Made by a program: the position numbers and the translations under genes. Below, in pieces: positions 16,402-31,250 of a stretch of 43,039 nt of DNA. The stretch is taken from assembly GCF_030068445.1 (NCBI RefSeq), contig NZ_JAQPOK010000039.1, forward strand, positions 1 through 43,039, in the 5' to 3' direction. Source of the stretch: Roseofilum halophilum BLCC-M91. Lineage in GTDB: Bacteria > Cyanobacteriota > Cyanobacteriia > Cyanobacteriales > Desertifilaceae. The notes under the pieces were generated by a model, which had not been told where the DNA came from, searched no databases, and saw nothing but the letters and a program-made list of their open reading frames with translations. Position 1 is the stretch's first letter, and every line of letters starts with the position of its first letter.

Positions 16402-16612
16402 GGTAGGGGCGGGTTTCAAACCCGCATGAGACAGGGTAGGGGCGGGTATACCCTATCCTCCATTTCCCACCGATGTAGGGGCGGGTATACCCTATCCTCC
16501 ATTTCCCACTGATGTAGGGGTGGGTATACCCTATCCTCCATTTCCCACTGATGTAGGGGTGGGTTTCAAACCCACCCCTACAAATTCATAATTCCCCATT
16601 CTTGTAGGGGTG
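16402..16612. repeat. GTAGGGG repeat block with three 39-bp tandem units
   Basis: Three tandem copies of a 39-bp unit occupy 16436-16474, 16475-16513 and 16514-16552. They differ at single C/T positions, and each holds GTAGGGG(C/T)GGGTATACCC and CCTCCATTTCCCAC. A partial fourth starts at 16553 and runs straight into a palindrome (GTAGGGGTGGGTTT, C, AAACCCACCCCTAC; 16553-16581). Related fragments occur at about 16402-16430 and 16600-16617. The block fills most of the 350-bp gap between the DUF2079 gene and the RarD-like gene. No coding frame of note is seen. Confidence 0.85.
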
Positions 16613-27156: not shown

Positions 27157-27615
27157 ATGAGCAAAAGAGTACAAATCGTATTAAACAAAGATGTAAGCAA
27201 ACTCGGCAAATCCGGAGATGTCGTAGAAGTAGCCCGTGGTTATGCCCGTAACTATCTCATCCCCCATGGTGTCGCCTTGCGAGCCACCCCAGGCATCCTC
27301 AAACAAGTGGAAATCCGCAAAGAAAAAGAACGTCAACGGCTGCTCGAAGAAAAACGCCAAGCCCAAGCCCGTAAAACTGCCTTGGAAACCATTGGTCGCT
27401 TCACCATCCGTAAACAAGTCGGTGAAGGAGAAGCCATTTTTGGAACCGTTACCGACCGGGAAGTAGCCGAAGTCATCCTCGAAACTACCGCCCAAGAAGT
27501 AGACCGCCGTGGCATTACCCTACCCGAAATCAGCAAACTCGGATTTTATGAAGCCGAAATTAAACTGCATCCGGAAGTTACCGCAACCGTTGAAATCCAA
27601 GTTGCTGCCCTTTAG
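27157..27615 (+). CDS. rplI: 50S ribosomal protein bL9
   Basis: The 152-residue protein has the bL9 signature: N-domain [36 protein letters not shown]-type start, a long connecting helix (about 45-75, rich in Lys/Glu/Arg) and a C-terminal rRNA-binding domain. bL9 sits at the base of the L1 stalk and affects frame maintenance. The rplI-dnaB order is ancient in bacteria and is kept here, with a 200-bp repeat-containing spacer. Confidence 0.97.
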
Positions 27616-27642
27616 GGATGGGGAGATGGGGGAAATATTGTG

Positions 27643-27747
27643 CCCTCATCCCCCAACCCCTTCTCCCACAGGCGCTGCCCTGAGCGCAGTCGAAGGGAGA
27701 AGGGGAGTAAAATCCCTCTCCCGTGGGAGAGGGATTTAGGGAGAGGG
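27643..27747. repeat. Composite palindromic repeat (~105 bp) between rplI and dnaB
   Basis: It consists of CCCTCATCCCCCAACCCC, an inner palindrome around GGCGCTGCCCTGAGCGCAG and TCGAAGGG, and an outer ATCCCTCTCCCGTGGGAGAG hairpin ending in GGGAGAGGG. A second copy in the opposite orientation lies inside the second DnaB intein (30796-30899). In that copy the outer parts match well, while the inner palindrome is flipped. The repeat supplies a GTG that lengthens the dnaB frame artificially. Confidence 0.85.
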
Positions 27748-27815
27748 CATCTCATGCGAAAATACTATATATCCCGTATCCTTCCCATATCCGAGTCCCG
27801 TCCCCACACCTTCCC

Positions 27816-30800
27816 ATGGTCAGCGAGTCCAACCTCCCAACCCTTCCCGAAACCCTTCCTCCCCAAAACATAGAGGCAGAAGAATCCATCCTGGGCGGTA
27901 TCTTGCTCGACCCAGAAGCCATTAATCGGGTGATTGATATTCTTCGCCCGGAAGCCTTTTCCCTCTCCGCACACCAAAAAATCTATCAAGCCGCCCTCAC
28001 CCTGCACAACGGTGGCAAACCCACGGATTTTATGACCGTGAACAGTTGGCTCTCTGACCATAATCTATTAGACAAAGTAGGGGGTCAAGGCAAGCTGGTA
28101 CAACTGCTCGACCGTACCGTGAGCGCGGTCAACATTGACGAGTATGCCAAACTCGTCATGGACAAATATCTGCGCCGTCAACTGATTAGAGCAGGCCATG
28201 AAATAGTGCAGTTGGGTTATGATAGCTCCACAGATATTAAGCAAATCCTCGACCAAGCCGAACAAAAAATCTTTAATCTCACCCAAGACCGGGTAAAGAA
28301 GGGTCTGGTTTCTTTAGCGGAAACGCTAACGCACACCTACGAAGAAATCCAATCTCAAAGTACCGGAGAAATTTTACCGGGTCTGCCTTGCCAATTTTAC
28401 GATCTTGATGCCATGACGGGGGGATTTCAGCGATCGGATTTGATTATTATTGCGGGTCGGCCGTCCATGGGCAAATGTTTAGCCTATGATAGTGAAATTG
28501 TCATAGATGATGGTTCAGTATTAACCATTGCCCAGATTTATCAGCAACAGCAGGCTACACTTTTAACTTTGGGAGAAGATTGGCAACTGAAAACTACTCA
28601 ACCTTCGGCCTTTGTAGATGATGGGATAAAGCCCGTTTTTCGAGTAACAACTGGTTTGGGAAGACAGATTGAGACTACACTCACTCACCCTTTTCGTGCC
28701 CTACCTGGATGGAAACCTCTGTCTGAGTTGAAACCGGGTGCGACTATTGCTGTACCGCGTCAAATCCCAATTTTTGGCAGCCAAACTCTACCTGAACCTA
28801 AAATTAAATTACTGGCTTATTTAATTGGTGATGGCTGTCTGACAGGGACAACTCCCCAATTTACGAATGCTAATTTGAGACTACAAGCTGAGTTTGCCCA
28901 AGCGGTTTCCTCTTTCCCTGGTTTGAAAATATCTGAACAAACCTCTCAAGGAACAAGAACCTTAACCAGTTATGTTGTCCGATGTCCCTTAAAAACCTCT
29001 GAAGCCAGAAAATATTTTGGTCAAAAACTAAGACAACTTTTACACGATCGCTCTTATTCGGCTCACCAATTGGCCAAAAAACTTTCTGTCAGTCCTTCAT
29101 TAATTACACCGTGGCTTCAAGGTAAATCAGGGCCAAGTCCTGCCAGCTTTGAGACAATTTGTCAGATGTTTGCTCTAACTCCTTCTTTTTTTGGAGTAAC
29201 GAGTTCGGCACAACTCTATAGCAAAGAGAAAAATCTATTAACTCAGTGGTTACAAAGTTTGGGCTTGTGGGGGAAAGATGCACACCAAAAAACAATTCCA
29301 GCAATTATCTTTCAATTGAAGCGATCGCAGCTTGCTTTGTTTGTCAACCGACTTTTTGCTACAGATGGCTGGATCAGTGTGTTACACAGTGGACAAGTTC
29401 AGCTAGGTTATACCAGTGTTAGCGAAACGTTAATACGACAGCTACAACATCTACTCTTGCGCTTCGGAATCATTGCTCGGCTAAAAAAACGGCAAGTTAA
29501 ATATAGGTCAGAAAGAAGACCCGCATGGCAACTGGATATTACTGATGGGCGATCGCTACAAACATTTATTGAAGCCATTGGGATTTTTGGTAAAGAAGAA
29601 GCTTGCTTCAAAGCACAGAAGGCTTTACAGTCTAAACGATATCAAACCAACCGAGATTTGATTCCCATAGAAGTATGGGAAGAAATTACCCAGGCTAAGG
29701 GGACAGAAAGTTGGAAATCAGTAGGACAACGGGCAGGAATTGTTGCCAGTAATCTCCATGTCGGGCGCAGATGTCCCACACGCGATCGCTTGAGTGTCAT
29801 CGCTGAAGCCTTAGATTCTGAACATCTCCAGCATTTAGCAACCAGCCATATCTATTGGGATACAATCGTCTCGATCGAATTAGTGGGCTATAAACAAGTT
29901 TATGATTTAACTATTCCCACAACTCACAACTTTATCGCCAATGATATTTGTGTTCATAATACCAGTTTCGCGTTGAATATTGCTAATAACATTGCCCAAA
30001 CGAGTCACTTAGCGGCAGCGATTTTTAGTTTAGAGATGTCGAAAGAGCAATTAGCGCTGCGTCTGCTCTCTAGTGAAGCGGGAATAGAAAGTAATCGTCT
30101 CAGGTCAGGGCGGATTAGTCAAACGGAATGGGAGCCTTTGATTGAGGCGCAAACGAATTTGTCTGAGTTGCCGATTTATATTGATGATACGGCTAATACT
30201 ACGGTGACGCAGATGCGATCGCAAGTTCGCAGACTGCAAGCAGAACAAGGACAACTCGGCTTGGTACTGCTCGACTACCTGCAACTAATGGAAGGAAGCA
30301 GTGATAACCGGGTGCAAGAACTTTCTAAAATCACTCGGCAACTGAAAGGACTGGCGCGGGAATTGAACGTGCCAGTCATTGCTTTGTCTCAGTTGAGCCG
30401 ATCTGTAGAATCGCGTACCAATAAACGGCCGATGATGTCAGATTTGAGAGAATCAGGTTGTTTAACTGGAGATACTCTAATTCCCTTAGCTGATGAAGGG
30501 ATTGAAGTTCCAATTCAGAATTTACTCGGTCGCTCTAACTTTACGGTTTGGGCAGTCAATTTAGAGAATTTGAAAATTGAAAAAGCGATAGTTACCAAAG
30601 TTTTTTCGACAGGAATTAAGCCTACTTTTAGTCTCACAACTGCTTTAGGACGTAAGATTCAAGCAACCGCGAATCACCCATTTTTAACTATTGATGGATG
30701 GAAAAGGTTAGATCAGTTGGACGTTGGCTCCTACATTGCTCTACCTCGGATATTACCGAGTCCAAAATATTCATCTATGAGTGATAAACATCTAGCCCTC

Positions 30801-31250
30801 TCCCTATATCCCTCTCCCACGGGAGAGGGACTGTCTCCCCTTCTCCTGCGGGAAAAGCGCCTCCTGAGCGGAGTCGAAGGGGGGTTGGAGGGTGAGGGGA
30901 AATGCTCTACAACTCATTTGAAAACGACAGATACTTTAGCCAATAGCGATCTTTATTGGGATAAAGTTGTTTCTATAGAAGCTTGTGGAGAAGCAGAAGT
31001 TTATGATTTAACGGTTCCTGGTTATCATAATTTTGTGGCCAATAATATCGTTGTTCACAACAGTATTGAACAGGACGCGGATCTAGTGATTATGTTATAT
31101 CGGGATGAATATTATAATCCCGATACCACCGATCGCGCGATCGCCGAAGCAATCATCACCAAACACCGCAACGGCCCCACCGGGATCGTTAAACTGCTCT
31201 TTGACCCCGAATTTACCCGCTTCCGTAACCTCGCCAAACCCCACAATTGA
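27816..31250 (+). CDS. dnaB: Replicative DNA helicase DnaB with two inteins
   Basis: DnaB is the hexameric 5'-3' helicase of the replication fork. I start it at ATG 27816 (MVSESNLPTLPETLPPQNIE), since the 93 nt upstream in frame are repeat DNA. The precursor is 1144 residues; removal of two inteins (495 and 201 residues) leaves 448, the normal DnaB length. The N-terminal domain begins AEESILGGILLDP. The RecA-fold core has Walker A GRPSMGK-TS interrupted by intein 1 between K and T, Walker B LVLLDYLQLM, and MSDLRESG-SIEQDADLV interrupted by intein 2. Splicing of both is required for an active helicase. It follows rplI as in most bacteria. Confidence 0.96.
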   Translation: MVSESNLPTLPETLPPQNIEAEESILGGILLDPEAINRVIDILRPEAFSLSAHQKIYQAALTLHNGGKPTDFMTVNSWLSDHNLLDKVGGQGKLVQLLDRTVSAVNIDEYAKLVMDKYLRRQLIRAGHEIVQLGYDSSTDIKQILDQAEQKIFNLTQDRVKKGLVSLAETLTHTYEEIQSQSTGEILPGLPCQFYDLDAMTGGFQRSDLIIIAGRPSMGKCLAYDSEIVIDDGSVLTIAQIYQQQQATLLTLGEDWQLKTTQPSAFVDDGIKPVFRVTTGLGRQIETTLTHPFRALPGWKPLSELKPGATIAVPRQIPIFGSQTLPEPKIKLLAYLIGDGCLTGTTPQFTNANLRLQAEFAQAVSSFPGLKISEQTSQGTRTLTSYVVRCPLKTSEARKYFGQKLRQLLHDRSYSAHQLAKKLSVSPSLITPWLQGKSGPSPASFETICQMFALTPSFFGVTSSAQLYSKEKNLLTQWLQSLGLWGKDAHQKTIPAIIFQLKRSQLALFVNRLFATDGWISVLHSGQVQLGYTSVSETLIRQLQHLLLRFGIIARLKKRQVKYRSERRPAWQLDITDGRSLQTFIEAIGIFGKEEACFKAQKALQSKRYQTNRDLIPIEVWEEITQAKGTESWKSVGQRAGIVASNLHVGRRCPTRDRLSVIAEALDSEHLQHLATSHIYWDTIVSIELVGYKQVYDLTIPTTHNFIANDICVHNTSFALNIANNIAQTSHLAAAIFSLEMSKEQLALRLLSSEAGIESNRLRSGRISQTEWEPLIEAQTNLSELPIYIDDTANTTVTQMRSQVRRLQAEQGQLGLVLLDYLQLMEGSSDNRVQELSKITRQLKGLARELNVPVIALSQLSRSVESRTNKRPMMSDLRESGCLTGDTLIPLADEGIEVPIQNLLGRSNFTVWAVNLENLKIEKAIVTKVFSTGIKPTFSLTTALGRKIQATANHPFLTIDGWKRLDQLDVGSYIALPRILPSPKYSSMSDKHLALSLYPSPTGEGLSPLLLREKRLLSGVEGGLEGEGKCSTTHLKTTDTLANSDLYWDKVVSIEACGEAEVYDLTVPGYHNFVANNIVVHNSIEQDADLVIMLYRDEYYNPDTTDRAIAEAIITKHRNGPTGIVKLLFDPEFTRFRNLAKPHN
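28476..29960 (+). other. DnaB intein 1 (495 aa), in Walker A, with LAGLIDADG endonuclease
   Basis: It begins Cys1 (CLAYDSEIV), has block B TTLTHPFRALPGW, and ends THNFIANDICVHN with the His-Asn pair; the +1 extein residue is Thr. The homing endonuclease shows two LAGLIDADG-type motifs, LLAYLIGDGCL and FVNRLFATDGW, with an acidic residue in each. Between them lies a helix-turn-helix-like insert (SAHQLAKKLSVSPSLITPWLQG). A second HTH-like segment (WKSVGQRAGIVASNLHVGRR) follows the endonuclease, so the intein may have added DNA-binding modules. All splicing residues are present, so it should be active. Confidence 0.95.
30459..31061 (+). other. DnaB intein 2 (201 aa), endonuclease-less, carrying an in-frame repeat
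   Basis: It sits at the same site as the Synechocystis Ssp DnaB intein (RESG / SIEQD). It begins Cys1 (CLTGDTLIPL), has block B TANHPFLTIDGWKRL, block F YWDKVVSIEACGEAEVYDLTVP, and ends NFVANNIVVHN before Ser+1. No LAGLIDADG motif is present. Where the endonuclease would be, about 35 residues (around residues 113-147) are encoded by a genomic palindromic repeat, read through in frame without a stop. The splicing blocks remain intact. Confidence 0.95.
30796..30899. repeat. Palindromic repeat copy inside intein 2
   Basis: It runs from CCCTCTCCCTATATCCCTCT to GGAGGGTGAGGGG and includes the ATCCCTCTCCCACGGGAGAG hairpin and CTGAGCGGAGTCGAAGGGG. It is the reverse-complement counterpart of 27643-27747. 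It is read in frame as part of the intein 2 linker. Confidence 0.85.

Follow-up and report, generated by a model that had tools for sequence, protein, structure and literature searches.

The window analysed here, a stretch of 43,039 nucleotides taken at its full length from the cyanobacterium Roseofilum halophilum BLCC-M91 (contig NZ_JAQPOK010000039.1 of assembly GCF_030068445.1), carries a dnaB helicase gene interrupted by two inteins. In the second of them, a mini-intein at the DnaB-b site, a two-hairpin palindromic repeat has very probably inserted into the endonuclease region and now forms the linker of the intein, in a slot that appears to tolerate such insertions and has been colonised recurrently. 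The first-pass annotation, made from the sequence of the window, had already placed a palindromic repeat in frame in the endonuclease slot of this mini-intein, and this is supported by genome-wide matches of the repeat and by an insertion shared with related species. Points beyond that annotation are the outer arm of a miniature inverted-repeat transposable element (MITE), the occurrence of the insertion in several species and the independent cases in other bacteria.

The repeat-derived stretch of intein 2 lies approximately between 30795 and 30935 (about 141 bp) and contributes 47 codons in frame between the two splicing halves (Table 1). The estimate of about 35 repeat-encoded residues given earlier has to be raised accordingly, with the MITE-type outer arm included. 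The stretch aligns to another genomic copy of the repeat (locus L002) at 82 % over 144 alignment columns. Its left edge, judged by eye, is uncertain by about 12-15 bases, and at the right end a few bases may belong to the intein proper rather than to the repeat. Bases 30795-30899 form two hairpins within short outer arms; beyond them, AACTCATTTGAAAACG lies 11 bases after GAGGGG in the intein copy and in L002 alike. The DNA fold of 30780-30910 has a z score of -2.57, with 2 of 200 shuffles as good, and the second hairpin of this copy is degraded. The second copy reported upstream of dnaB is indeed present, matching the intein copy at 49 of 53 positions (27696-27748, E 2e-16) with shorter patches of similarity in the remainder of the upstream copy, but it is inverted and lies on the opposite strand, a point the first-pass annotation lacked. 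This upstream copy folds better than the one in the intein (27612-27755, z -6.76).

A 111-base query gave at least 50 match rows at E<=0.001 in the 4.85-Mb genome that holds the window (G000, with the window on contig C39) when the best 40 of 142 candidates were scored, a number in which the query itself and some doubles from the reverse strand are counted. Elsewhere in the genome, 105-107 query bases were matched at 85-86 %, with E down to 5e-26, so the similarity is genome-wide and the suspicion that it is confined to a few bases is ruled out. The core CCCTCTCCC-N1-6-GGGAGAGGG was found 71 times in the genome vs 0 times for the reversed-pattern control.

A number of the copies sit within a longer element of 151-203 bp with the ends TATAGC...GCTATA, and other copies show no such ends in the flanks examined. 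The terminal pattern is present at 26 forward and 27 reverse places, compared with 2 and 1 for the control. The longer element is MITE-like in being multi-copy and short, in having terminal inverted repeats and in containing no transposase gene; the intein copy keeps only its right arm. RAYT was considered as the mobiliser, but no repeat or terminal-arm string was found beside the 8 fetched Y1-transposase loci (9 matches), several of which lie at contig ends with their flanks cut.

Among the two-hairpin units in the fetched Roseofilum loci, 48 of 65 have at least three of the six frames open. We also looked for other copies inside genes among the 66 distinct cores of these loci; some lie in long open frames, which are unconfirmed as genes, and others look antisense or low-complexity by eye. 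At locus L154 (contig C36 of the same genome) two cores, at 1501 and 2335, fall in one 900-aa frame that looks TPR-type by eye, near proline-rich repeats. At L022 (contig C69) a frame resembling DUF559 by eye runs via two repeat copies into another coding-like stretch.

That intein 2 keeps its splicing blocks and has no endonuclease was correctly described from the sequence, and the intein lies at the coordinates given for it. It matches the PF14890 splicing-domain model over residues 8-201 (E 2e-38) and scores above the cut-off of both TIGR01445 and TIGR01443, and a LAGLIDADG search of intein 2 returned no match at E<=0.001, though intein 1 does match. Its C1 residue is the codon 30459-30461 and its final Asn ends at 31061. 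The N- and C-terminal splicing regions, the first Cys, the penultimate His and the last Asn followed by Ser are all there, as in DnaB-b mini-inteins. In the structure predicted by AlphaFold the splicing halves reach a predicted local distance difference test (pLDDT) score of 92-99 per block of ten residues, compared with 50-64 in the linker. The best fold matches are the DnaB mini-inteins 6frg, 4o1r, 6frh, 6fre and 1mi8, the same group being closest by sequence, and the alignments to 4o1r, 6frh and 6frg have only a few residues where the repeat sits in intein 2. Some linkers of the solved DnaB mini-inteins were presumably engineered.

Insertion history in Roseofilum

We compared the dnaB locus with five related Roseofilum genomes (G001-G005, of which G004 is R. 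acuticapitatum BLCC-M154). The same insertion with the same left junction is found in G004 and G005, where both hairpins are intact, and the G004 insertion is also seen in a public record (L061). Relative to the window copy, these two lack the 24-bp inner stretch and a further 24 bp in the outer arm; as both size differences are of 24 bp, the frame is kept. No related intein was found to carry the same residues without repeat-type DNA: in the searched genomes only G004 and G005 share them, and their copies are more canonical repeat DNA than the window copy. In G001 the same intein is free of the repeat and holds an endonuclease remnant, LALLGHLIGDGCTLPRHAIQYTT. G002 contains neither intein, both dnaB sites being empty, and G003 gave no intein match, its main dnaB frame of 453 aa fitting an intein-free gene.

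The three species with the insertion are those richest in repeat copies. At E<=1e-6 we obtained at least 46 rows for G000, at least 47 for G004 and at least 52 for G005 (best 40 candidates scored in each), compared with 8 for G001, 1 for G002 and 0 for G003. In an unrooted tree of the dnaB exteins from five of the six genomes (G003 left out), G000, G004 and G005 were split from G001 and G002 with a support of 100/100, which in its simplest reading suggests that the three insertion-bearing species form a clade. Because the shared insertion, the tree split and the repeat abundance fit together most simply in this way, a single insertion probably took place before the G000, G004 and G005 lineages separated.

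Codon differences between G000 and G004 in the N-terminal half of the intein are 19 synonymous and 3 nonsynonymous over 96 codons, so synonymous changes are in excess there. The six pairs among four inteins have 13-22 synonymous and 3-11 nonsynonymous differences in this half.

Repeats in DnaB-b inteins of other bacteria

The survey was built from 245 screened loci, drawn from a part of the 143 matching genomes in one search and from all places in 42 in another. After 24 loci without a match to the intein pattern (some real inteins among them) and 34 duplicates had been set aside, 187 distinct DnaB-b inteins were left. Judged by length, 137 of the 187 are without an endonuclease and 50 have one; 27 inteins have linkers shorter than 15 aa, and the remaining 110 were screened.

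Two further lineages hold other palindromic repeats in the same intein slot, each of them multi-copy in its own genome. The linker of L097, a record titled Chloroflexi bacterium Centralia_MAG_208, holds an element of about 110 bp (RNA fold z -6.76), which gives at least 58 match rows in its own genome, G059 (best 40 of 507 candidates scored). In L082, a record titled Anaerolineae bacterium SJ142, the linker carries a palindrome of about 68 bp, GTCAT...ATGAC (z -6.22), which gives at least 44 match rows in G686 (best 40 of 82 candidates scored). In both genomes the query itself is counted among the rows and some places are counted on both strands, so that copies are fewer than rows. L082 keeps an endonuclease remnant, LALLGHHIGNGG, beside the repeat. 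L256 (genome G078), spotted by its peptide and not by the hairpin cut described below, is a fourth and degenerate case, in which two different repeats lie in the linker of a 242-aa intein that has no endonuclease by length. The first part has 8 other places of roughly 40-87 bases at 79-85 %, and the second has 31 other places of roughly 26-48 bases at 85-100 %; longer matches for L256 were also found. In all the repeat-bearing inteins the frame and the splicing motifs are kept, as read from sequence, and the splicing-domain model matched all four inteins on which it was run (window intein, G001, L097 and L082). The vacated endonuclease slot is thus a recurrent permissive niche for repeats, colonised independently in other bacteria.

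As a control, we counted windows overlapping by half that pass a hairpin cut (perfect stem >=8, >=5 G+C pairs in the stem, z at most -3.5). Four of the 125 windows in the middles of mini-inteins passed (L032, L033, L082 and L097, amounting to three insertions), compared with 0 of 1372 in the splicing halves and exteins of the same genes. No window passed among the 546 in the endonuclease domains of the 50 inteins that have one.

Other candidates were rejected. The linkers of L112, L127 and L130, related mini-inteins with the common peptide GGVA[QL][LIM]V, encode tRNA-like peptides (GGVAQLVR, GGVAQIVC and GGVALMVR); ARAGORN found no tRNA there or in L097. Copies outside inteins were looked for inside genes of G059 and G686 at 33 loci (L168-L186 and L380-L393), 6 of which have a spanning frame with 50 aa on both sides. 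Five of these frames (L168, L170, L178, L184 and L393) are antisense, short or low-complexity by eye, and the last, L177, is permease-like by eye but its place is mis-set, as the locus is cut.

The dnaB gene and its surroundings

The start codon of dnaB was picked by similarity to relatives. The gene is likely the one for the replicative helicase, since the sole other DnaB N-domain match in the genome (L411, contig C83) has a C-terminal part unlike replicative DnaB when read by eye. Intein 1 carries an inserted helix-turn-helix as well as the LAGLIDADG domain, and no match to the repeat copy appears in this intein among the listed within-window matches. The DnaB-a site is empty in G004 and holds a 397-aa version of the intein in G005. 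Elsewhere in the window, at 16436-16564, there are three tandem copies with 39-bp spacing of GTAGGGGCGGGTATACCCTATCC...

Table 1. Positions of the dnaB gene, its inteins and the repeat copies in the window
Feature	Position	Strand	Evidence
dnaB precursor gene (DnaB helicase and two inteins)	27816..31250	+	Pfam DnaB, DnaB_C, two Intein_splicing stretches
Intein 1, DnaB-a site, 495 aa, LAGLIDADG endonuclease and helix-turn-helix	28476..29960	+	
Intein 2, DnaB-b site (ESG|C...HN|S), 201-aa mini-intein without endonuclease	30459..31061	+	
N-terminal splicing half of intein 2 (end approximate)	30459..30746	+	Alignment with 4o1r and 6frh as far as ALPR; codon differences vs G004
Two-hairpin palindromic repeat copy, in frame	30795..30899	+	Within-window and genome matches, core count
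First hairpin core CCCTCTCCCACGGGAGAGGG, still perfect	30810..30829	+	
24-bp inner stretch missing from the G004 and G005 copies; long and short forms both among other genomic copies	30857..30880	+	
Right outer (terminal-repeat) arm of the MITE-like element, containing AACTCATTTGAAAACG; G004 and G005 lack 24 bp of it	30900..30935	+	Same arm, same spacing in L002
C-terminal splicing half of intein 2	30948..31061	+	Alignment to solved inteins, predicted fold, codon counts, TIGR models
Second window copy of the repeat, in the spacer that separates dnaB from the gene before it; orientation opposite to that of the intein copy	27643..27748	-	

Explanations and known systems

The reading we prefer is that a non-autonomous palindromic repeat, found also within a MITE-like element, entered the endonuclease region of a DnaB-b intein and became a flexible linker joining the two splicing halves. 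Because several of its six frames are often open, the repeat could enter a gene without bringing a stop. The linker lies outside the splicing fold, at a place that formerly housed a whole endonuclease, and the translated repeat should leave with the intein, so that mature DnaB would be unaltered; most other genes would probably suffer from such an insertion. The insert is probably retained because of these three properties, the open frames, the position outside the splicing fold and the expected removal of the residues by splicing.

Several observations weigh against this reading. No target-site duplication is clear by eye at the complete 151-203-bp elements, the left junction is ambiguous, and no mobilising gene for the repeat was found, the parent transposon not having been searched for. 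Sampling of the survey was non-random and leans to close relatives and to the class of the L097 genome (30 and 12 places), and linkers were compared with their own genomes in the named cases (Roseofilum, L097, L082 and L256). The hairpin cut was set after a first look at the linker screen, and 2 of 486 windows in other parts of the endonuclease-type genes pass it, both in exteins (L297 and L266). The window copy and L256 fail the cut (full-linker z -4.53 and -2.57), the former in this windowed form because its second hairpin has decayed, and in the linker screen two further linkers with small hairpins, L268 (z -3.87) and L048 (z -3.6), also reach a z of -3.5 or lower. Splicing of intein 2 is predicted from the fold and the codon counts, and in the C-terminal half the counts between G000 and G004 (4 synonymous to 3 nonsynonymous over 38 codons) show no selection.

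Of the alternatives, the one that survives best, though we consider it unlikely, is a single step of insertion with deletion, in which the arriving repeat destroyed the endonuclease, took its place and so caused the mini-intein. The Roseofilum repeat takes over right at LAL in the first endonuclease motif and extends to TLANSD; no other trace of an endonuclease was seen. However, in the sister genome G001 another deletion removed the endonuclease and there is no repeat, L082 retains a remnant beside its repeat, no endonuclease window passes the hairpin cut, and 103 of the 110 screened mini-intein linkers have a fold z above -3.5. The loss of the endonuclease without a repeat in G001 and the absence of passing windows from endonuclease domains favour, without proving it, an arrival of the repeat after or together with the loss. 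The first-pass annotation had left both courses open, replacement of the endonuclease linker or arrival following its loss, and the evidence leans to the latter.

That the repeat segment was recruited, say to a folded or regulatory role in the linker or, at the RNA level, as a hairpin tuning translation and splicing, appears improbable. Between G004 and G005 (L032 and L033) the old linker shows 0 differences in 60 bases and the repeat 2 in 89, compared with 24 in the first 276 intein bases (the N half), and the first hairpin is perfect in all three species with the insertion. A Fisher test of the repeat against the splicing parts nevertheless gives a p of 0.20, which is not significant; the window copy has a degraded second hairpin, the linker has the low pLDDT values given above, and linker lengths vary between species. 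A chance likeness or an assembly artefact, in which a GC-rich linker merely resembles the repeat, is hardly credible: strings like CCCTC and GAGGG may recur more readily than other words, but the near full-length genomic matches, the 71 cores and the occurrence of this insertion in two further assemblies, one of them also represented by the public record, speak against it.

Beyond the insertion itself, there may be a general succession in inteins, for which we see about even chances, in which decay of the endonuclease comes first and the slot, being spliced out of the protein, is afterwards preferred as a harbour by whichever palindromic repeat family is active in the host. If this is true, nested selfish DNA would find refuge in inteins across bacterial phyla, with insertions silent for the host protein. 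The case offers a natural test of the tolerance of intein linkers and a marker of lost endonucleases, and it allows one to ask whether insertions otherwise purged are sheltered by protein splicing. Recurrence in unrelated hosts turns it from an oddity into a testable rule and provides natural linker variants for intein work.

A literature search, thin on subscription journals, recovered no intein with such a repeat, including in the accessible parts of PMC5896051 and PMC7765530. Small repeats in frame with genes are known: Correia/NEMIS and other small MITEs with open frames are fused to other reading frames, as the intein repeat is, in the passages available from PMC2229807, where inteins are not mentioned. 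The parallel with Rickettsia palindromic elements (RPE), drawn in the first-pass annotation, is apt. According to the same passages these palindromic repeats, 105-146 bp long, lie within protein genes as in-frame fusions, and many are conserved (PMC2229807). Their residues are kept in the mature protein, as is implied by what the passages say on guanylate kinase, whereas those in the intein should be spliced out; the likeness is confined to the mode of life inside a gene. The other relative is the 'MITEtron', a MITE with copies genome-wide that is carried by a group I intron in dsrA of Thiomargarita and which in the part of the source at hand is likewise a non-autonomous repeat nested in a self-splicing element (PMC4853749). 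There the host is an intron and splicing acts on RNA, whereas a protein intein demands that the reading frame is kept, and similar intein cases occur in several lineages. Repeats translated within genes and a MITE in a self-splicing intron are therefore already known; what appears to be new, as far as our literature search goes, is a repeat within a self-splicing protein.

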